Origin: Paludibacteraceae bacterium | Lineage (GTDB): Bacteria; Bacteroidota; Bacteroidia; Bacteroidales; Paludibacteraceae | NCBI GenBank assembly: GCA_017384225.1 | Contig: JAFNUD010000028.1 | Coordinates: forward strand, 1-63,278 | Length of the DNA stretch: 63,278 nucleotides | Direction of reading: 5' to 3' | Shown here: one piece after another, positions 3,047 to 59,832 of the stretch | Position numbering within the stretch: the first letter of the stretch is position 1 | Layout: each line of letters opens with the position of its first letter | Notes under the pieces: generated by a model | Told to the model about the DNA's origin: nothing | Databases searched by the model: none | The model's input: the letters and a program-made list of their open reading frames with translations, nothing else | Position numbers and translations under genes: made by a program

Positions 3047-3781
3047 TTATAATATCTCCATCACTTCGGAGAGGGATTGAACCAGGTAAGTAGCGGATTG
3101 CCCTTCGGGGAGTGGGTCTTTAGATTTGCGAATCCATATCTGGTCAATGCCTGCGTTGATTGCACCCTGGATATCGGAGTTCCATGAGTCGCCTATCATC
3201 ACGACATCTTCGGCTTGCAAGCCATTCATACGCAATGCCTCCTCGAAAATACGTGGATTGGGTTTCTGGCAACCTACTTCTTCACTCAATACGATATGCG
3301 CAAAGCAGTCACGAAGTCCGCTCTTGTCAAACTTCTCGTATTGCACTTCCACAAAACCATTAGTCACTACCGTCAGCGGGTATTTAGCAGCCAAATAGCG
3401 CACAAGTTCCTTTGCTCCTGGCAGTAATGAGAAACGAGCCGTTGTCATATTCAAAAAATCCTCACTCAACTGCTCTGCAAGAGCAGCAACTTCTTGCCTC
3501 TCGCCTTTAACCTTTAACCTTTCGCCTACCCTACTTCCGTGCATCAAAGGGAAGAAGAAGCGGTCAAAACTCAGGTATTCTTTGGTCACAAGGTCTTTGC
3601 CGTATTTGTCCCAAAGTTCGATATTATGCGGTTTATAGAGCAAGAAGAATTCCTCAAACGAAGCAAAATACTCGCTGAGATTATATTTCTCATACATATC
3701 TTGAAGCGCCAGTTTGGCTGCCCCAACGAAATCGCCTATCGTATCATCCCAATCAATAAATACTGCTTTATACTGCTTCAT
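3047..3781 (-). CDS. HAD-family hydrolase, YjjG-like nucleotidase
   Basis: A 244-residue cytoplasmic phosphatase. The start at 3781 (MKQYKAVF) is chosen because a -7 promoter box covers 3805-3813, so a start at 3808 would lie inside the promoter. HAD motif I is DWDDT, motif II is VVTNG, motif III Lys lies in CQKPNP, and motif IV is IGDSWNSDIQGA. The alpha-helical cap matches the YjjG / 2-haloacid dehalogenase subgroup, whose members dephosphorylate non-canonical pyrimidine nucleotides or small phospho-metabolites. The substrate here is inferred. Residues about 85-94 (GERLKVKGER) are encoded by a short repeat array (3501-3527) that looks like an in-frame insertion in the cap. Confidence 0.85.
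   Translation of the reverse strand: MKQYKAVFIDWDDTIGDFVGAAKLALQDMYEKYNLSEYFASFEEFFLLYKPHNIELWDKYGKDLVTKEYLSFDRFFFPLMHGSRVGERLKVKGERQEVAALAEQLSEDFLNMTTARFSLLPGAKELVRYLAAKYPLTVVTNGFVEVQYEKFDKSGLRDCFAHIVLSEEVGCQKPNPRIFEEALRMNGLQAEDVVMIGDSWNSDIQGAINAGIDQIWIRKSKDPLPEGQSATYLVQSLSEVMEIL
3501..3527. repeat. Short repeat array inside the HAD gene
   Basis: Repeats of CCTTTAA flanked by CTCGCC and TTCGCC lie in frame in the coding sequence. The array resembles the other low-complexity arrays in this window. Confidence 0.55.
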
Positions 3782-3804
3782 CATTCGTTTATTCATTTTC
3801 AAGT

Positions 3805-3836
3805 GCAAAAGTACAGTTTTTTTTTCATATTTGCAA
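3805..3836 (-). promoter_or_regulatory. Promoter of the HAD gene
   Basis: The -7 box TACTTTTGC (3805-3813) and -33 box TTGCA (3832-3836) are separated by 18 bp. The start codon is 23 bases downstream. Confidence 0.7.
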
Positions 3837-16058: not shown

Positions 16059-17873
16059 TTAGGAGGGCTTAATGTCTTGTACCATCATCTGGATGGTGGT
16101 TCTATGATTGAATGTATTTTCGTCTAACTCGTAACAGATATCCACGGGATTGCCGTTTTGGATATACTCTGCCATGTCGGCTCGCCCGAAGGCAATACCC
16201 GTGATGGCGTAAGCACGGTCTGTAACATCCAGACGAAGATGTTCGCCCATTTTGCCCACTACACGTGTGTCTCGATGATTGATAAGATTGCGAGAAGCAA
16301 ATAGTGGACGTGGGTTGCCAGGACCGAAAGGTTCCAAATACCGAATCACATTATAAAAAGCGGGCGTGATATCTGCCAAGTCTAATTCTGCTTCCACATG
16401 CAAAGTGGGTTGCAACTGATCCTCTCGGATATGGGTAGCTACATAGTGCTCAAAGCGCTCGCAGAACGCTGGTAGATTATCGATATGCATGCTTAGTCCT
16501 GCTGCATATTTGTGTCCACCGAAGTTGGTCAGGAGATCTATACACGAGTCAATGGCAGCATAAATATCAAACCCTCCCACCGAACGTGCAGAACCAGAAA
16601 TAATACCATCTTCGCCAGCAGTGAGGACGATAGTCGGGCGGTAATATGTCTCTGTCAAACGGGATGCCACAATACCTACTACACCTTTGTGCCAATGTGG
16701 GGCATAGACTACTGTTGAATGGCGTTGCGCAAAGGTAGCATCTTCTTCTAACATTGTCAATGCCTCTTTGGTGGTCTCTGTATCACAGTCGCGGCGTTCC
16801 TCGTTATGTTGGTTGACCTCTTCGGCTTGCTGGCGAGCGAAAGTGGCATCGTTGGTCAGGAGAAGTTCTACGGCTGCACGACCAGATTTCATGCGACCAC
16901 AAGCATTGATACGTGGACCAAGTTTATATACGAGTTCGTTGATAGTCAGTTTCTTAGCTTCTATTCCCGCAACATCTACTACTGCAGATATACCAGCAAA
17001 AGGTGCTTGGTTGATCTGTTTGATTCCAAAGTGTGCCAGGATGCGATTTTCGCCTGTGATAGGCACGATATCCGAGGCAATGGACATCGCCAAAAGTTGA
17101 GTGAGAGGGAGGAGCGTAGCTTCGGTTATCGGATATTGGTTATCGGATATCGGGATAAGATACTTTTGTGTATATGCTTGCGCGAGTTTGAAACCTACAC
17201 CGCAACCTGACAAGTCTTTGTATGGGTAAGGACAGTCATCGCGTTTCATGTTGAGTACCGCTACTGCATTGGGTAACTCATCGCCTGGGGTATGGTGGTC
17301 GCAGACAATGACATCAATGCCTTTGTTATTGGCGTAGGCGATTTTCTCCACAGCCTTGATACCACAGTCAAGGGTAATAATAAGTGTGCAACCTTGCTCT
17401 GCAGCATAGTCAATGCCTTGCGTAGATACGCCATAACCTTCGGTATAACGGTCAGGAATATAGTAGTCGATTGCGGGTATCGGGTATCGGGTATCGGGTA
17501 TCGAGTTGTCATCTGTACTCCGATTACCGATAGGCATAGCCGTCCGATTGCCGATTCCCTTCAAGAATCGATACATGAGTGCTACGGCGGTGGTGCCATC
17601 GACATCGTAGTCGCCGTAGATGAGGATTTTCTCGCCTTGTGTTATGGCTTGGTGCAGGCGCTCCACGGCTTTGTCCATATCCTTCATAAGGAAGGGGTCG
17701 TGCAGATTGTCGAGTGATGGGCGCACAAAAGCGCGTGCCTCATCGGCGGTCTGTATGCCACGCACGACCAACATACGTGCGGCAGCGGAACTGATGTTCA
17801 GTTCGCGTTCTAACTGCTGCTGTGTCTCTTGTTCCACCGCAGTCAAATGCCGTATGTTCCATTGGTAGGTCAT
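16059..17873 (-). CDS. recJ: Single-stranded-DNA-specific exonuclease RecJ with two in-frame insertions
   Basis: A 604-residue 5'-3' single-strand exonuclease of recombination and mismatch/base-excision repair. DHH-family motifs are intact: DYDVDGTT (88-95), LDCGIK (169-174), CDHHTPG (191-197), then DHHA1 features GRMKSGRAAVELL and GGHKYAAGLS. Two segments are unlike the family. Residues about 107-135 contain PIGNRS and SIPDTRYPIP and lie just before the conserved DYYIPDRYTEGYG. Residues about 239-250 read LIPISDNQYPIT. Both are encoded by GATATCGG-type repeat arrays also found between genes in this window. They probably lie in loops and leave the enzyme functional. Confidence 0.93.
   Translation of the reverse strand: MTYQWNIRHLTAVEQETQQQLERELNISSAAARMLVVRGIQTADEARAFVRPSLDNLHDPFLMKDMDKAVERLHQAITQGEKILIYGDYDVDGTTAVALMYRFLKGIGNRTAMPIGNRSTDDNSIPDTRYPIPAIDYYIPDRYTEGYGVSTQGIDYAAEQGCTLIITLDCGIKAVEKIAYANNKGIDVIVCDHHTPGDELPNAVAVLNMKRDDCPYPYKDLSGCGVGFKLAQAYTQKYLIPISDNQYPITEATLLPLTQLLAMSIASDIVPITGENRILAHFGIKQINQAPFAGISAVVDVAGIEAKKLTINELVYKLGPRINACGRMKSGRAAVELLLTNDATFARQQAEEVNQHNEERRDCDTETTKEALTMLEEDATFAQRHSTVVYAPHWHKGVVGIVASRLTETYYRPTIVLTAGEDGIISGSARSVGGFDIYAAIDSCIDLLTNFGGHKYAAGLSMHIDNLPAFCERFEHYVATHIREDQLQPTLHVEAELDLADITPAFYNVIRYLEPFGPGNPRPLFASRNLINHRDTRVVGKMGEHLRLDVTDRAYAITGIAFGRADMAEYIQNGNPVDICYELDENTFNHRTTIQMMVQDIKPS
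17123..17159. repeat. ATATCGG-type repeat array inside recJ (copy 1)
   Basis: Imperfect units of GGTTATCGGATATTGG and GGATATCGGG. The reverse complement matches the arrays at 50929-50980 and 52552-52582, which lie outside genes. Confidence 0.75.
17473..17560. repeat. ATATCGG-type repeat array inside recJ (copy 2)
   Basis: Four perfect units of GGGTATC(G) at 17473-17505 are followed by a mixed part with CCGATTACCGATAGGC and CCGATTGCCGATTCC at 17519-17560. Reading frame is preserved across the whole array. Confidence 0.75.
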
Positions 17874-17908: not shown

Positions 17909-18907
17909 TTAGTGTTTAGTGATGAGCCATTTACCCTCTTTTCGTCCGCCGATTCGTTCTAAAACTCCCATTTTTTTGAGGATAGACAATTCTCGTTTGA
18001 TGGTGATCTCTGATACTTGTATCTTTTGTATCATTTGTGAGATGGTTATTGTATCATCTTTACGAATCAAATCCAATATAATTTGCTGTCTATCTGTTAG
18101 TTGTTTTGTATCATCTTTTGTATCATTTGCTTCCATCGAAGCATTGAACGCTGCTATTTCAGCAGACAGATTATGTAGATGGATACGCAACATAGTATTC
18201 ACAAATATATCTTCGTTATCTTGTTCGCGTGTATCAATCAGGGCTTGAATATATTCTGCCTTTTGCTCTTTGAGTACCTTGACAGGAATGAGATTGTACT
18301 CCCATTGCAGCATATTCATCACCAGTCGTGCCATTCTGCCGTTTCCGTCTGCCCATGGGTGAATAGTCACCAGTCTATAATGTGCTAAGAAACTCAGACG
18401 ATAGGCAGACAATATGTCTGTTGCTGCGACTTGTTTTCGTTCGTTATTAAGCCATTGGCAGAACTCTTGTAATGCTTGTGGCACTTTAGCAAACGCCATG
18501 TACGAGCGTCCTTCAAACCCTGCGGTGACATTGAGCAGTCGCAAGTCGCCTGCTGCCGAAGAGAATGAACCTAAAGGTGTATTGTATGTAGAACCCGTAT
18601 GCTCCATGAGGCAGGCAGAGAGGTCGCATAACATTTTTACCGAATAGGGCGTGTGTGCTTTGGCTTGTTCTTGGGCAATTTCGTATGCATGTTTAAGATC
18701 GAGGTTCATCATTTGTTCCTGCAGGGTGCGCCCTGGTGCAGTGATTCCCTCGTCAAAGAGCAATTGGTTTTCTCTTTCGGTAACAGTAGATCCCTCGATG
18801 GCAGTAGAGTGCGTGATGAGCGAGTACAAGTAAAATTTCTTGTAATCAATCTGTTCGGGAATCCCCAGACGGATATATTCTTGTATTATGGACAAAAAAG
18901 TGCTCAT
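17909..18907 (-). CDS. Fic-family AMP-transferase with winged-helix C-terminus
   Basis: A 332-residue protein starting at 18907 (MSTFLSII), which lies 18 bases after the -7 box; longer in-frame starts would sit upstream of the promoter. The N-terminal autoinhibitory helix has the (S/T)xxxE(G/N) motif as STAIEG (34-39), placing it in class II Fic proteins. The Fic motif is HPWADGNGR (183-191) with the catalytic His. The C-terminal 65 residues are a winged helix-turn-helix (RQQIILDLI...RIGGRKEGKW) that suggests DNA binding. The family transfers AMP to target proteins. The target is unknown. It is first in a minus-strand set with recJ and tdk. Confidence 0.92.
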   Translation of the reverse strand: MSTFLSIIQEYIRLGIPEQIDYKKFYLYSLITHSTAIEGSTVTERENQLLFDEGITAPGRTLQEQMMNLDLKHAYEIAQEQAKAHTPYSVKMLCDLSACLMEHTGSTYNTPLGSFSSAAGDLRLLNVTAGFEGRSYMAFAKVPQALQEFCQWLNNERKQVAATDILSAYRLSFLAHYRLVTIHPWADGNGRMARLVMNMLQWEYNLIPVKVLKEQKAEYIQALIDTREQDNEDIFVNTMLRIHLHNLSAEIAAFNASMEANDTKDDTKQLTDRQQIILDLIRKDDTITISQMIQKIQVSEITIKRELSILKKMGVLERIGGRKEGKWLITKH

Positions 18908-18925
18908 TACTCTACATTTTCGGCT

Positions 18926-18957
18926 GCAAAGGTACAACAAAAAATGCACATTTGCAA
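18926..18957 (-). promoter_or_regulatory. Promoter of the Fic gene
   Basis: -7 box TACCTTTGC (18926-18934) and -33 box TTGCA (18953-18957) with an 18-bp spacer. The surrounding 38 bases match the promoter of the 1091-residue protein at 36 positions. Confidence 0.8.
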
Positions 18958-19008
18958 GAAAGATATAAAAATTATCTAATCTATACAAAATTTGTATATT
19001 CCACAGAC

Positions 19009-19038
19009 AAAAAAGTGCGGACTTAATTAAGTCCGCAC
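19009..19038 (-). terminator. Terminator of the large secreted-protein gene
   Basis: A perfect 24-base palindrome (19015-19038, GTGCGGACTTAA and its complement) is followed on the minus strand by TTTTTT. Confidence 0.9.
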
Positions 19039-19070
19039 CAAAAGTACAATCATTACTTATCACTCATTGT

Positions 19071-22706: not shown

Positions 22707-23504
22707 TCACACAGAAAACTCATCTGCATCTTTCCACAGCGGTAACACCTCACGGAAATGGTGCAGCGCATCAATATCAAACTCTACAACACGTGTACCC
22801 GCCTCGTCATCAGCAAATTGTGCCATATCCTGCAGACGAGTATTATACGCTACGGAATGACCATTGTAGTGCAATCCCATGCCGTCATCACCCACACAAT
22901 TGACCGCAGCAATATAGCATTGATTTTCAGTAGCACGAGCAGCTATAAGCGCATCCCAATACTGAATACGAATATCGGGCCAATTGGCAACCACCAAAAT
23001 CACATCATAGTCATATCCTGTCTTGTTGCGCGCCCACACGGGAAACCGCAAATCGTAGCATACCAGCAGCAGGATCTTGACCCCCTTGTACTCAAATACG
23101 GTGCGATCAGTAGCAGACTCAAAAAACTTATCCTCACCACCATGTGCATAGAGATGGCGCTTGTCTTGGATCTGGACGTCGCCATGTGGCACTACCATAA
23201 ATCCGCGGTTGACTAGTTTGGCAATTGGCGATAGGCAATTGGCAATAGGCGTTGGCAAGCAGATGAATGAACTGACGATAGCTATCTCGTATTGGTCCGC
23301 TATGCGTTGGAGGGTGGTCATAATCTCCCCGTTCATCGTTTCTGCCAGTTCGGGATGATCGGTACAAAATCCCGTGGCGAACATTTCGGGCAACACCGCA
23401 ATATCCGCCTTACCCTCTAAAGCAGCGATACGCTCCTGAGTCAAGCGAAGATTAGCTGTCTTATCCGCCCATGCGATAGGATATTGTAGGAGTGCTACTC
23501 TCAT
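22707..23504 (-). CDS. Nitrilase-superfamily amidase (YafV/omega-amidase-like)
   Basis: A 265-residue carbon-nitrogen hydrolase. The catalytic triad is visible as Glu40 (VLPEMF), Lys115 (DKRHLY) and Cys149 (LLVCYDLRFPVW). The subgroup with this motif set hydrolyses alpha-keto amides such as ketoglutaramate or other small amides; the exact substrate is inferred. Residues about 82-98 (CLPTPIANCLSPIAKLV) are encoded by a GCCAATTGCC-type repeat array that interrupts the usual loop before the G-x-hydrophobic strand. The gene follows the nitroreductase by 12 bases. Confidence 0.88.
   Translation of the reverse strand: MRVALLQYPIAWADKTANLRLTQERIAALEGKADIAVLPEMFATGFCTDHPELAETMNGEIMTTLQRIADQYEIAIVSSFICLPTPIANCLSPIAKLVNRGFMVVPHGDVQIQDKRHLYAHGGEDKFFESATDRTVFEYKGVKILLLVCYDLRFPVWARNKTGYDYDVILVVANWPDIRIQYWDALIAARATENQCYIAAVNCVGDDGMGLHYNGHSVAYNTRLQDMAQFADDEAGTRVVEFDIDALHHFREVLPLWKDADEFSV
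23219..23259. repeat. GGCAATTGGC-type repeat array inside the nitrilase gene
   Basis: Units GGCAATTGGCGATA, GGCAATTGGCAATA and GGCGTTGGC follow one another. Related arrays lie in the methyltransferase gene (46368-46400) and in polA (33781-33810). Confidence 0.75.
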
Positions 23505-48758: not shown

Positions 48759-50921
48759 ATGGCTAAAGTTTATCAAGCTAACGAGATTAAGAACATTGCC
48801 CTCATGGGTGGCAGTGGCTCGGGTAAGACTACCCTTATGGAATCCATGCTCTTCGAGTGCGGGGTCATCAAACGTCGCGGAACCGTTGAAACACAATCTA
48901 CCGTCTGCGACTATTTTCCAGTAGAAAAAGAATATGGCTATTCAGTCTTTTCTTCAGTATGTAACATCGAGTTCAATAACAAAAAACTCAATATCATCGA
49001 CTGCCCAGGTTCAGATGACTTCTGTGGTGGTGCTATCACAGCTCTCCACGTGTCTGACACCGCTATCATCACCCTTACCGCAAATGGTGGCGTAGAGGTG
49101 GGCACACAAAACAACTTCCGCCGCGCTGAGAAAGCTAAGAAACCTATCGCTTTCGTCATCAATAAGTGCGACCACGAGAACGCTGACTTCGAGCGTACTT
49201 TCAACGAACTCAAAGAGGTGTTTGGTAACAAATGTACCCTCTTCCAATATCCTATCAACGCAGGTAAGGACTTCAACGCTGCCATTGATGTGCTCCAAGG
49301 CAAAATGCTCGTTTGGAAAGCAGAAGGTGGTGCGCCTGAGGCTAAAGATATCCCAGAGAGCGAGAAAGCTACTGTAGAAGAGATTCGCGCTCAACTCCTC
49401 GAGTGGGCTGCTGAGTCCGACGAGACTATCATGGACAAGTACTTCGAGCAAGGCACTCTCTCTGACGAAGAACTCATGCGCGGTCTTCAAACCGTATTTG
49501 CAGAAGGTAGCATGTACCCAGTAATCTGCACCAGCGGTCTTCGCGATATGGGTATCCGCCGCCTCATGGGATTCCTTGGCGAGATGACCCCATCCGTAGC
49601 AGATGCTCCAAAACCATTGACTATCAACGCAGAAGAAGTAGCTCCTGTGGCTACTGCTCCTACCTCTGCATTCATCTTCAAGACATCAGTTGAGCCACAC
49701 ATCGGTGAGGTGAACTACTTCAAGGTGATGCAAGGAACCCTCAAGCCAGGTGATGACGTATTGAACGTTGATCGCGGCACCAAAGAGCGTATCTCTCAAC
49801 TCTACTCTGTGGCTGGTAATATCCGCGTGCCTGTAGAGGAAGTGTCTGCTGGTGACATCGCTGCTACTGTAAAACTCAAAGACACTCGCACAGGTAACAC
49901 CCTCAATGCAAAAGACTGTGAGAACCAATATCCAGCTATCTCTTATCCAGATCCTAAATATCGCCGTGCTATCAAGCCAGTGAACGAGGCTGACTCTGAG
50001 AAGCTTTCTGCTCTCCTCACCCGTATGCACGAGGAGGACGCTACTTGGGTAGTAGAGCAATCTAAGGAGTTGAAGCAAGTGATCGTTTCAGGTCAAGGTG
50101 AGTTCCACCTCCGCACCCTGAAATGGCGTCTGGAGAACAACGATAAGATGATGGTTCAATACGAAGAGCCAAAGATTCCTTATCGTGAGACCATCACCAA
50201 GTCTGCTCGCGCTGACTATCGCCACAAGAAACAATCTGGTGGTTCTGGTCAATTCGGCGAAGTACACCTCATTGTGGAGCCATACGTAGAGGGCGAACCA
50301 GTTAAGGAGGTTTACAAGTTCGGTAACCAAGAGTACCGCATCTCTGTTCGTGACACCCAAGAGATTCCATTGGAGTGGGGCGGCAAGTTGGTGCTCATCA
50401 ACTCTATCGTGGGTGGTGCTATTGATGCACGCTTTATCCCTGCTATCTTGAAGGGCTTGATGGATCGTATTGAGCAAGGTCCTTTGACTGGCTCTTACGC
50501 TCGCGACGTGCGCGTTATTATTTACGATGGTAAGATGCACCCAGTAGATTCCAACGAAATCTCCTTCCGTTTGGCAGGTCGCAACGCCTTCGCTGAGGCG
50601 TTCAAGAACGCTAATCCAAAACTCTTGGAGCCTATCTACGAGGTTGAGGTATTCGTACCAAGCGAGATTATGGGTGATGTAATGTCTGACATCAACGGTC
50701 GCCGCGGTATGGTGCTCGGTATGGAGACTGAGAAAAACTTCACCACACTCAAGGCATTGGTTCCTTTGAAAGAGATGTCCTCTTACTCTACTACATTGTC
50801 TTCTCTCACGGGTGGTCGTGCTACTTTCACGATGAAGTTCAAGAGCTACGAACTCGTTCCTGGTGATGTACAAGACAAACTCATCAAGGAGTACGAGGCT
50901 ACTCAAAAAGACGAGGATTAA
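48759..50921 (+). CDS. fusA2: Elongation factor G paralogue EF-G2 (probably GTPase-deficient)
   Basis: A 720-residue protein with all five EF-G domains. The P-loop is GGSGSGKTT (17-25), G3 is DCPGSDDF (81-88) and G4 is NKCD (136-139). The catalytic His of the canonical DTPGH motif is Ser at position 85, and the switch I RGITI sequence is absent. In Bacteroides thetaiotaomicron a paralogue of this type, EF-G2, supports translocation without GTP hydrolysis and is needed during gut colonisation and starvation. Domains III-V are well conserved (GSGQFGEVHL, VFVPSEIMGDVMSDINGRRG). The gene ends at a strong terminator and is followed by an inserted AlbA_2 gene. Confidence 0.93.
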   Translation: MAKVYQANEIKNIALMGGSGSGKTTLMESMLFECGVIKRRGTVETQSTVCDYFPVEKEYGYSVFSSVCNIEFNNKKLNIIDCPGSDDFCGGAITALHVSDTAIITLTANGGVEVGTQNNFRRAEKAKKPIAFVINKCDHENADFERTFNELKEVFGNKCTLFQYPINAGKDFNAAIDVLQGKMLVWKAEGGAPEAKDIPESEKATVEEIRAQLLEWAAESDETIMDKYFEQGTLSDEELMRGLQTVFAEGSMYPVICTSGLRDMGIRRLMGFLGEMTPSVADAPKPLTINAEEVAPVATAPTSAFIFKTSVEPHIGEVNYFKVMQGTLKPGDDVLNVDRGTKERISQLYSVAGNIRVPVEEVSAGDIAATVKLKDTRTGNTLNAKDCENQYPAISYPDPKYRRAIKPVNEADSEKLSALLTRMHEEDATWVVEQSKELKQVIVSGQGEFHLRTLKWRLENNDKMMVQYEEPKIPYRETITKSARADYRHKKQSGGSGQFGEVHLIVEPYVEGEPVKEVYKFGNQEYRISVRDTQEIPLEWGGKLVLINSIVGGAIDARFIPAILKGLMDRIEQGPLTGSYARDVRVIIYDGKMHPVDSNEISFRLAGRNAFAEAFKNANPKLLEPIYEVEVFVPSEIMGDVMSDINGRRGMVLGMETEKNFTTLKALVPLKEMSSYSTTLSSLTGGRATFTMKFKSYELVPGDVQDKLIKEYEATQKDED

Positions 50922-51009
50922 TTCCGCAATACCGATATCCGATAACCATTATCCGATATCCAATATCCGATATCCAATCATCAGCGAGACTGCCGTAACG
51001 GCAGTCTCG
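50902..51009 (+). repeat. Direct repeat A: 3' end of EF-G2 plus downstream array and terminator
   Basis: Starting at the last 20 coding bases of EF-G2, the sequence is matched after the AlbA_2 gene at 52526-52614. Coding tail 19 of 20 identical, then ATACCGATATCC, AATATCCGATATCCAATCA and the AGACTGCC / GGCAGTCT stem. Confidence 0.85.
50929..50980. repeat. ATATCCGATATCC-type repeat array after EF-G2
   Basis: Units CCGATATCC, GATAACC and ATTATCCGATATCCA. The same family lies in frame within recJ at 17123-17159 and 17473-17505. Confidence 0.8.
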
Positions 51010-51158: not shown

Positions 51159-52514
51159 ATGGAAACGCAAACGGTAGAATACAAACAGATTTGGAGAGAC
51201 GATTTTCTAAAAGAAATCTGCGGCTTTGCTAATGCAAAAGGCGGCACACTCTATGTAGGTATTGCTGATAATGGCGAAGTGGTGGGCGTAGATAATCCGC
51301 ACAAATTGCAAGAAGATATTCCTAACAAGATTGTACAGAAATTGGGTATTGTTTGCAGTGTCAACCAGCATACTAAAGATGATAAAACCTATCTTGAGAT
51401 TGTTGTGGAGCCAAATATGGCAGCTATTGCTTATAATGGTGCATACTATATTCGTTCGGGTTCTACCAAACAGGAACTTACAGGCAACGCTTTGGAGGAG
51501 TTTCTGTTGCGCAAGCGTGGGCGAACTTGGGATAGCGTACCGCAACCATATCTGCATGTTGAAGACTTAGATAAGGCTTCTATCCAAATGTTCAAAACGG
51601 ATGTGGTGCGTAGCCAGCGAATGACGGAAAATGAATTGCAATTGAGCAACACCGAACTAATGGATAAGTTGCATTTAATAGAAGGCAATTATCTCAAACG
51701 AGCTGCTGCCCTACTATTCCATGCAGACCCCGAAAAGTTTATTACAGGTGCTTGGGTAAAAATCGGTTTCTTCAACGATAAAAACCAAATTCTTTATCAG
51801 GACGAAGTGCACGGAAGTCTCTTCCAACAAGTTGAAAAAACGATGGACTTCCTTACCACCAAATATACTAAGGCATACATCCGATACGAAGGGCTACAAC
51901 GCATTGACGAACTACCTATACCACGAGATGCGTTGCGCGAGGCAATTCTAAATGCGCTAATCCACAAGGACTATAGCAGCTTCACGCCTATTCAGATTAG
52001 TGTATATGATGATAAGGTAATGATTTGGAATACAGCGATATTACCTGCTGATTGGACGGTGGAAACCCTTATACAGAAGCATGGTAGTCGTCCACACAAC
52101 CCCGATATAGCAGCCACATTCTTCCGAGCTGGTGAGGTGGAAGCATGGGGACAAGGTATAGAACGCATTCAGACCTATTGTGCCGACTACGGATGTCCTG
52201 TACCTGAATGGAGATTTGATGGTGCGGGCATATGGACTATCTTCTACAACAAACCTAATACAAACACTGTGGAAAAGAGTTCGGAAAAGACTGTAGAAAA
52301 AACTAGGGAAAAGACTAGGGAAAAGACTAGGAAAAACATTCTCAATGCAATCAAAGAAAATCCGACAATAACCATTAACGAACTCGCCATCTTGACGGGA
52401 ATAACAACCAAAGGTATTGAATGGCAGTTAAAAAAACTCCAAACGCAAGGTATCCTCTCACGCATCGGAGGTCGCAAAGAAGGTCACTGGGAAATCTTAA
52501 AAAAAGAACAATGA
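51159..52514 (+). CDS. AlbA_2 / HATPase_c_4 regulator with C-terminal winged helix
   Basis: A 451-residue protein. The N-terminal AlbA_2 (Schlafen-like) domain includes VEYKQIWRDDFLKEICGFANA and GGTLYVGIADNGEVVGV. A central HATPase_c_4-type region contains RDALREAILNALIHKDYS and HNPDIAATFFRAGEVEAWGQG. A charged linker with EKTREKTREKTR repeats follows. The C-terminal winged helix (TITINELAILTG...RIGGRKEGHW) is similar to that of the Fic protein at 17909-18907. Such proteins are presumed nucleic-acid-binding regulators, sometimes in accessory regions. The gene is bracketed by copies of the EF-G2 3' end. Confidence 0.85.
   Translation: METQTVEYKQIWRDDFLKEICGFANAKGGTLYVGIADNGEVVGVDNPHKLQEDIPNKIVQKLGIVCSVNQHTKDDKTYLEIVVEPNMAAIAYNGAYYIRSGSTKQELTGNALEEFLLRKRGRTWDSVPQPYLHVEDLDKASIQMFKTDVVRSQRMTENELQLSNTELMDKLHLIEGNYLKRAAALLFHADPEKFITGAWVKIGFFNDKNQILYQDEVHGSLFQQVEKTMDFLTTKYTKAYIRYEGLQRIDELPIPRDALREAILNALIHKDYSSFTPIQISVYDDKVMIWNTAILPADWTVETLIQKHGSRPHNPDIAATFFRAGEVEAWGQGIERIQTYCADYGCPVPEWRFDGAGIWTIFYNKPNTNTVEKSSEKTVEKTREKTREKTRKNILNAIKENPTITINELAILTGITTKGIEWQLKKLQTQGILSRIGGRKEGHWEILKKEQ
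52271..52336. repeat. In-gene 12-base tandem repeats
   Basis: GAAAAGACTAGG-type units encode EKTR/EKTV/EKSS repeats in the linker before the winged helix. Confidence 0.75.
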
Positions 52515-52525
52515 TCTAACCACAC

Positions 52526-52614
52526 CTCAAAAGGACGAGGATTAATCCCAACATACCGATATCCAATATCCGATATCCAATCAAAAAAGACTGCCAAGTG
52601 ATTTGGCAGTCTTT
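52526..52614 (+). repeat. Direct repeat B: displaced copy of the EF-G2 3' end
   Basis: CTCAAAAGGACGAGGATTAA repeats the last 20 coding bases of EF-G2, including its stop codon, although no EF-G2 gene precedes it. It is followed by a shortened repeat array and a degenerate terminator stem. Confidence 0.85.
52552..52582. repeat. ATATCCGATATCC-type repeat array after the AlbA_2 gene
   Basis: ACCGATATCC and AATATCCGATATCCAATCA. A shorter version of the array at 50929-50980. Confidence 0.75.
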
Positions 52615-58333: not shown

Positions 58334-58389
58334 AGTGATTTTACAAATAACTATCAAATATTAATTATTAATTGTTAATTATTAACTCT

Positions 58390-58866: not shown

Positions 58867-58896
58867 AAAAAAATAAGGCTCACGCCTTATTTTTTT
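58867..58896. terminator. Bidirectional terminator after ssb
   Basis: AAAAAAATAAGGC pairs with GCCTTATTTTTTT around TCAC. It overlaps the stop codon of the convergent outer-membrane protein gene. Confidence 0.9.
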
Positions 58897-59806
58897 ATAT
58901 ACCATAACTTACTCCGATTGCCAAATTCAACTTCTGATTACCAGCCTCTTCGATTGGACGAATCAAGTTCTCTTTCGTCACCTGCCAAAGTTGCAACATC
59001 ACATGCGCAAACGCATTCAACCTTCCTGCTCTCCTCTTCGCCTCATCGCCTTCTCGCCTCATCGTCTTTTCGCCTATATCCCAACTCTTATTTAACTTCA
59101 GTCCCACCAGAGTCACTGCAAAATTTCCTTGATAACCAGTATATAAACTCTTGGCTGGCGTCACACCTACACGTGCTGTCAACATCCAATCATCGCCAAT
59201 ATCAAAATCATAGCCCAACTCTATATAGGTAGAATAAGCACGCTTCAATTCCAGCGTAGCCTCATCGCCCAATCCCCCTTTCACCTCATAATACCCATCT
59301 CTACCAAAGGTGCGTACAGCAACCAAGCAACTCAACGGAATTTGATCACTCACACGATAAGAAACGCGCCACTCGCCTGTAGTTCCACCTCCGCCAGGAA
59401 CATGATTCTTAAAATCAAAATACTTCGACATAGTACCATCCGCATAGCGATCAAAATAATACATATGCAAATATAGCACTGTCAAACCCCAACGGCTATA
59501 GCCTATAGTAAAATCGACTTCGGGGTTCAAAGTAGAGCATGTCCAATCCCTAACACCTACGTTCCACCACACGTTTGCAAACAGTCCCTTATAGCCCACC
59601 GTAGCATCCACTTGCAGACTTAGACCACCAACGTACAAACCACGCCAGATATAGTTACTCGTCAATGTCGCTCCCGCAGACCATGTGAAACCACTTTTTT
59701 GCCTCATATCACGCATAGAAACCGACACAGTATCATTAGCATACGATATAGTATGCACAAATAAGAGAGCGAAAAGAAAACCAACTACTCTTCGAAAAGA
59801 CAACAT
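58895..59806 (-). CDS. Hypothetical outer-membrane beta-barrel protein
   Basis: A 303-residue protein starting at ATG 59806 (MLSFRRVVGFL) with a signal peptide ending in SYAND. Barrel-like alternation and aromatic belts are visible from the N-terminus (TLTSNYIWRGLYVGGLSLQV, LFANVWWNVGVRDW) to the C-terminus (KLNLAIGVSYGI). TSNYIWRG is typical of a family of uncharacterised outer-membrane proteins. Residues about 245-257 (KTMRREGDEAKRR) are encoded by a repeat array and sit in what is probably a periplasmic turn. Confidence 0.75.
   Translation of the reverse strand: MLSFRRVVGFLFALLFVHTISYANDTVSVSMRDMRQKSGFTWSAGATLTSNYIWRGLYVGGLSLQVDATVGYKGLFANVWWNVGVRDWTCSTLNPEVDFTIGYSRWGLTVLYLHMYYFDRYADGTMSKYFDFKNHVPGGGGTTGEWRVSYRVSDQIPLSCLVAVRTFGRDGYYEVKGGLGDEATLELKRAYSTYIELGYDFDIGDDWMLTARVGVTPAKSLYTGYQGNFAVTLVGLKLNKSWDIGEKTMRREGDEAKRRAGRLNAFAHVMLQLWQVTKENLIRPIEEAGNQKLNLAIGVSYGI
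59036..59073. repeat. CGCCTCATCGCC-type repeat array inside the outer-membrane protein gene
   Basis: Units CTTCGCCTCATCGCC, TTCTCGCCTCATCG and TCTTTTCGCC. Frame is preserved. Confidence 0.65.
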
Positions 59807-59832
59807 AGTACAACTGATCAAGTAACCTTACA

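Follow-up and report, generated by a model that had tools for sequence, protein, structure and literature searches.

Rickettsia offers the best-known example of repeats that have spread in frame through conserved proteins. The accessible part of one report describes the Rickettsia palindromic elements (RPEs) as elements of ~150 bp in ten defined families, which lie in frame in unrelated genes and are tolerated there (PMC10969869). Dispersed heptamers have been described from other bacteria. Those of Xanthomonas and Nostoc, with the patterns GGGAATC and GGGGA(C/T)T, combine conserved and variable positions in runs of 2 to 26 units; according to the available text of that source, 186 and 183 patterns were counted in two Xanthomonas genomes and varied between close species, 11% and 7% were intragenic in the xanthomonads, and 68% were intergenic in Nostoc (PMC4692102). 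The available portion of another source reports TAACTGA heptamers from Beggiatoaceae, Cyanobacteria, and five Bacteroidetes (PMC4679880). Among titles and the opening lines of abstracts, in a search to which subscription literature was mostly external, no report of heptad arrays inside genes of Bacteroidales was found, which is weak evidence of novelty.

The window, meaning the whole 63,278-nucleotide stretch analyzed, is contig C122 of a 2.17-Mb genome in 140 contigs (88% complete, 5.8% contamination), whose nearest named relatives in the RecJ comparison were Paludibacteraceae genomes from herbivore guts. The product of its recJ gene has Pfam DHH, DHHA1, and RecJ_OB domains and matches the solved RecJ structure 8y30. 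The first-pass annotation had placed arrays of one short motif in recJ and beside the EF-G gene, and these were recovered at 17122-17153, 17468-17509, 50927-50980, and 52556-52583; both of the in-frame peptides that it had proposed were read in the translation, and the recJ frame was unbroken. The arrays of the window and their surroundings are as follows.

16059-17873, minus strand: recJ, single-strand DNA exonuclease, one open frame of 604 aa with two in-frame repeat-derived inserts
17122-17153, minus strand: heptad array of recJ site B, GGATATC/GGTTATC, peptide LIPISDNQYPIT (motif and repeat scans)
17468-17509, minus strand: heptad array of recJ site A, CGGGTAT, peptide SIPDTRYPIP (translation, repeat scan, and lengths in relatives)
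17510-17560, minus strand: remaining part of the site A insert in recJ (peptide GIGNRTAMPIGNRSTDDN), in which degenerate words like GGNNATC were recognized by eye
50927-50980, no strand: CCGATAT heptad array, with the EF-G stop codon (gene at 48759-50921) before it and a hairpin and T run after it
52526-52583, no strand: second copy of the EF-G 3' end with its array, past the SLFN_AlbA_2 ORF (51159-52514), with another hairpin and T run behind it
3492-3523, minus strand: CCTTTAA/CTCGCCT heptad array inside a HAD-hydrolase ORF (3047-3808; Pfam Hydrolase at residues 13-220)
23218-23258, minus strand: TTGGCAA/TTGGCGA heptad array, peptide CLPTPIANCLSPIA, in frame in a CN_hydrolase gene (22707-23504)
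58348-58389, no strand: TAATTAT heptad array, classed as intergenic
59025-59075, minus strand: period-8 array, CCTCATCG (complement CGATGAGG), in ORF 58895-59821

Tandem Repeats Finder delimited the site A array at 17474-17503, with 4.3 units and 100% matches. With up to one mismatch, ATATCCGATATCC had 8 matches in the window, against a mean of 0.05 and a maximum of 1 in 100 dinucleotide shuffles. The period-7 arrays at 3492-3523, 23218-23258, and 58348-58389 came in addition to those that the annotation had named. The sole Pfam match of the ORF that holds the period-8 array falls under the curated cutoff, and the octad recurs at recJ site A, within the inserts of two relatives, L031 and L033. 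A Fic/DOC-family ORF with a DeoR-type HTH adjoins recJ (17909-19063), and a coding repeat with a 9-nt unit, represented by GGACAAGAT, GGTAAAGAC, and variant forms, is present in many copies at 383-861, within ORF 101-1813.

A survey of 643,578 non-N bases of the genome, in which a period-7 array required 17 of 21 matches at lag 7, returned 59 arrays of period 7, compared with 1, 3, 11, 10, 1, 13, and 4 for periods 5, 6, 8, 9, 10, 11, and 12, respectively; the recJ site B array and the array at 52556 lie under the threshold and are therefore outside these counts. Period-7 arrays were absent from three block shuffles of the sample. The resulting density, 9.2 per 100 kb, is inflated because part of the sample was picked on earlier motif hits: contigs C10 and C27, which were picked for size and in which the earlier motif search gave only two-mismatch hits, held 13 arrays in 220,000 nt (5.9 per 100 kb), and the remainder held 46 in 423,578 nt (10.9 per 100 kb). 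Densities per 100 kb elsewhere were 11.8 in G057, 9.2 in G014, 5.0 in G060, 4.8 in G038, 2.5 in six other members of the genus, and 1.1 in the recJ neighborhoods of other Bacteroidales. In the whole genome, three tandem GGNNATC units with up to one mismatch gave 86 matches at about 21 places, against 9 for a reversed control, and a looser search with GGATATCGGATATC and up to two mismatches gave 87 against 52. The further genomic copies that the annotation had anticipated were thus found, in both orientations and both within and between genes. The heptad arrays range from 28 to 211 nt, comprise several words, and have no fixed length. The window shuffles, block shuffles, and reversed control rule out a chance origin, and the several distinct 7-nt words rule out a single motif; the observation is confirmed and is broader than first described. 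On balance, the two recJ inserts probably belong to a population of 7-nt tandem arrays that is dispersed through the genomes of this Bacteroidales lineage.

At L159 6296-6506, a 211-nt GGNNATC array lies at the tsaD 3' end, immediately behind that gene, which carries a 160-nt array, and the longest array among the loci scanned, ~340 nt of ATGAGTG-type heptads, opens a G014 contig (L168 9-347). A period-8 class (GGCGATRA-like) was also found, with all six of its arrays in the sample lying in called ORFs; beside the window array, delimited here as 59030-59059, its sites are the following.

L158 11403-11437
L191 17655-17693
L196 527-564
L196 17613-17651
L199 4741-4770

Words were shared among unrelated loci. 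Identical words joined 34 pairs among the 59 arrays, whereas 200 letter shuffles gave a mean of 2.7 and a maximum of 8, under a null that takes no account of composition runs or duplicated regions. By the same measure, there were 35 pairs in G014 (null 2.1), 47 in G057 (2.4), and 26 in G038 (1.7), and six arrays from other Bacteroidales gave none (0.0). The commonest words, judged by eye, were GGNNATC here, ATGAGTG in G014, GTTTAGT in G057, and GAATTAT-like words in G038; GAATT words occur in several species. Five fixed and two variable positions were a by-eye impression in several words. The word classes are not crisp, since single linkage at one difference joined 46 of the 59 words.

Called ORFs held 32 of the 59 arrays and covered 92% of 658,551 nt (with N contigs counted as open), so that arrays are depleted in genes overall. 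Genes were called by a longest-ORF rule, and of 28 array-bearing ORFs put through Pfam, 21 were supported, 2 were weak, and 5 were unmatched. The 21 Pfam-supported genes held 24 of the 59 arrays, in frame, and are listed here.

Repair: RecJ, RarA, UvrA, RecQ, LigA, RecN
Others: CN_hydrolase, HAD hydrolase, radical SAM, TsaD, IspD, PurD, serine dehydratase, PurL, GtrA, Tex, ABC_transp_aux, DUF2490, two glycosyltransferases, FecCD

Among these 24 arrays, 23 span 28 to 43 nt and one spans 160 nt. Stop-free words were found for 15 of the 24 genic arrays and 21 of 54 intergenic strands (P = 0.08), a preference that is a trend only. A period of 7 nt makes protein-level selection for the repeat unlikely. 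Six of the 21 supported genes serve DNA repair or recombination, whereas the control had one such gene in 31 random ORFs with Pfam matches (P = 0.013); counted over every ORF put through Pfam, the figures were 6 of 28 and 1 of 40, respectively (P = 0.017). This comparison was post hoc, and its control, random array-free ORFs of at least 200 aa, was not length matched and had uracil-DNA glycosylase as its only counted repair gene, with Endonuclease_1, Exo_endo_phos_3, and PDDEXK_9 uncounted.

The alignment of RecJ with relatives that the annotation had proposed showed the insert to be missing at site A in 23 of 37 sequences, where the segment has 17 residues, compared with 41 here. Eleven rows of one clade, this genome included, have 24 to 68 residues, and three rows outside it have 20 to 28. 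Site B has 31 residues in 25 of the 37 sequences and 40 to 71 in five, with 40 in this genome; six rows were unparsed and one was misparsed. No relative carried the same residues without the repeat, and the site A inserts of close relatives differ. A RecJ tree was built from alignment columns with at least 80% occupancy, with five rows omitted and duplicates included (L114 = L032 and L136 = L035), and insert states were assigned by eye. On it, site A changed state at least nine times, five of them within a clade of 12 rows that includes two duplicates, and site B changed four times. Of the two nearest relatives, L048 has the short recJ loop. The heptad inserts in recJ were of the GGNNATC kind here, CTAACCT in G025 and G057, and CTCTCAA in G053; an octad was found in L031 and L033, and composite palindromic inserts were found in G014, G060, and partly L034. 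The G014 composite inserts (L166 10394-12406, L323 15890-18157, and L166 8410-9255) are RPE-like, with hairpins such as GCTCGCAAAGCGAGC in recJ. Of the single interspersed element that the annotation had envisaged, dispersal and entry into conserved genes held up; in place of one element there were arrays of a number of different 7-nt words, accompanied by inserts of octad and palindromic kinds.

In TsaD, the 53-residue array was absent from all 29 aligned relatives and from four further close genomes, among them both of the nearest by the RecJ tree. At the array position, the TsaD of G063 has a shorter octad-like run, and the loop in the close relative G061 contains GGGAGTCGG. The loops of LigA, CN_hydrolase, and RecQ also vary among close relatives, that of CN_hydrolase in both length and sequence; the LigA and CN_hydrolase alignments each contain two rows from one genome. 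In by-eye comparisons with solved chains, which reveal nothing beyond the places where a family varies in length, TsaD was unaligned over the array, Tex and RarA had clear extra residues, LigA and PurD had about four, and UvrA and IspD had hardly any; the PurL array fell outside the printed alignment. Some arrays in genes therefore appear to replace loop sequence while leaving loop length nearly unchanged, and from the comparisons with solved chains and relatives, the effect of an array spans loop rewriting to more than 50 added residues. As read from these alignments, insertion is clear in recJ and tsaD and less clean in ligA, CN_hydrolase, and recQ.

Insertions of at least 6 aa were counted in reciprocal best pairs, with pairs under 45% identity dropped, on G038, G057, and G014 stretches partly picked to hold RecJ, TsaD, LigA, RecQ, or CN_hydrolase. 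Against G038, the counts were 18 versus 8 for G000, 29 versus 12 for G014, and 12 versus 14 for G057. Lag-7 identity of at least 11/14 was seen in 5 of the 18 insertions of G000, 2 of the 12 of G057, and none of the 29 of G014, compared with 0 of 8, 0 of 12, and 0 of 14 in G038 for the pairings with G000, G014, and G057, respectively. Without the five genes, the counts were 13 versus 6 for G000, 19 versus 9 for G014, and 6 versus 11 for G057, which indicates no general excess of insertions; lag-7 cases fell to one in G000, none in G014, one in G057, and none in G038, so that evidence for period-7 insertions is thin outside the five chosen genes.

Beside EF-G, a direct repeat made up of the EF-G 3' end and the array (50902-50980 and 52526-52583) flanks a 1.6-kb segment with the SLFN_AlbA_2 ORF, and this segment looks like an insertion at the gene 3' end with target duplication. 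Among eight relatives read, the array 3' of EF-G was near identical in G063, shorter in G014, and absent in six (G025, G057, G060, G061, G062, and G064), close kin of G063 and of G014 among them. This patchiness could stem from exchange between species or from recurrent loss.

The arrays resemble the Xanthomonas and Nostoc heptamers in consisting of tandem 7-nt units at many dispersed loci with a shared degenerate word and in being underrepresented in coding regions, as far as the available text of that report allows comparison; its GGGAATC word also occurs in this genome (PMC4692102). They differ in that several words occur per genome and in that 24 of the 59 arrays lie in Pfam-supported genes, whereas the Xanthomonas and Nostoc repeats are chiefly intergenic. 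With the TAACTGA repeats, in the part of the source at hand, they share heptamer direct repeats and presence in some Bacteroidetes, whereas TAACTGA is a single word that in marine Beggiatoaceae lies mostly just upstream of start codons (PMC4679880). The likeness to RPEs that the annotation had drawn stands for tolerated in-frame entry into unrelated genes, seen against relatives in recJ and tsaD and by Pfam in the others; unlike RPEs as the consulted text defines them, the arrays are open ended, spanning 28 to 211 nt in several words, and they are not RPE members because neither a defined length nor a family sequence was found. On the same partial description, the G014 and G060 composites are closer to RPEs in appearance than the heptad arrays are. 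Here dispersed heptamer arrays are combined with RPE-style in-frame insertion into genes.

We lean towards a reading in which arrays spread from locus to locus, slip in place, and last within genes only at loops that can accommodate them without loss of frame. New arrays would be seeded by copying from other arrays, through ectopic conversion or template switching in repair or replication, and arrays would lengthen and shorten by slippage; a genic array would survive only if the frame were kept, stops were avoided, and a presumed tolerant loop were hit. It is probable that the arrays act as near-neutral passengers, altering the loops of proteins, rather than as working parts of RecJ. We infer the copying step, no copying event having been seen; the reading as a whole is supported by the predominance of a non-codon period, with period 7 at 59 arrays and any other period from 5 to 12 at 13 or fewer, by the sharing of words between loci, by the arrays in Pfam-supported genes, and by the loop differences between relatives. 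Against it stand the thin insertion counts outside the five chosen genes, the weak preference for stop-free words, the scant length change at the UvrA, IspD, and PurD arrays, and the blurred word classes, and the patchy, near-identical intergenic arrays could stem from exchange between species. A purely local origin, by polymerase slippage in place from chance seeds, with a polymerase preference for 7 nt and tolerant loops, is a serious though rather unlikely explanation. Its support comes from the perfect units at recJ site A, from GGGAGTCGG in the G061 TsaD loop as a possible seed, and from reports that, in their accessible parts, rank heptanucleotides first in abundance among the long simple repeats of most genomes and propose slippage (PMC4679880, PMC4692102); against it, the sharing of words between unrelated loci, well above the shuffled mean, would be hard to obtain by independent local slippage. 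Delivery of the inserts by a mobile element proper, RPE- or MITE-like and moved by a transposase, is unlikely: the G014 composite inserts do recur as units, with 94% identity over 120 nt between its two recJ sites, and the peptide SGTPLRREA is common to LigA and CN_hydrolase of G014, but the heptad arrays have neither a fixed length nor a single sequence.

With a unit length not divisible by 3, gain or loss of one unit might reversibly shut off recJ and other genes. The perfect units at recJ site A and the apparent overrepresentation of repair genes in the post hoc comparison fit such phase variation, and stops within the RecQ matches of G039 and G047 might do so too. We nevertheless regard it as very improbable: the genic arrays should slip little, since 23 of 24 are 28 to 43 nt and mostly degenerate, tsaD and ligA would be expected to be indispensable, and all 37 recJ sequences are open, although long open frames had been chosen for the comparison. 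An artifact of assembly or binning is suggested by the completeness, contamination, and contig number of this metagenome-assembled genome; with the frame kept and comparable inserts at the same sites in independent genomes, its probability is close to negligible. Beyond the preferred reading of spread, slippage, and tolerance, arrays could be a running source of new loop sequence, with unrelated repeat kinds reentering the same loops of repair and housekeeping proteins and a preference for genes of repair (RecJ, RarA, UvrA, RecQ, LigA, and RecN) feeding back on the mutation that makes arrays, an extension that we consider very unlikely.

If the preferred reading is true, these gut bacteria would provide a second, unrelated case of in-frame repeat spread, built from simple 7-nt units, and loops of essential enzymes would be rewritable on short time scales without an evident transposon. 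The many species with and without an insert at one site would offer a test bed for the spread of arrays and their effects on proteins.
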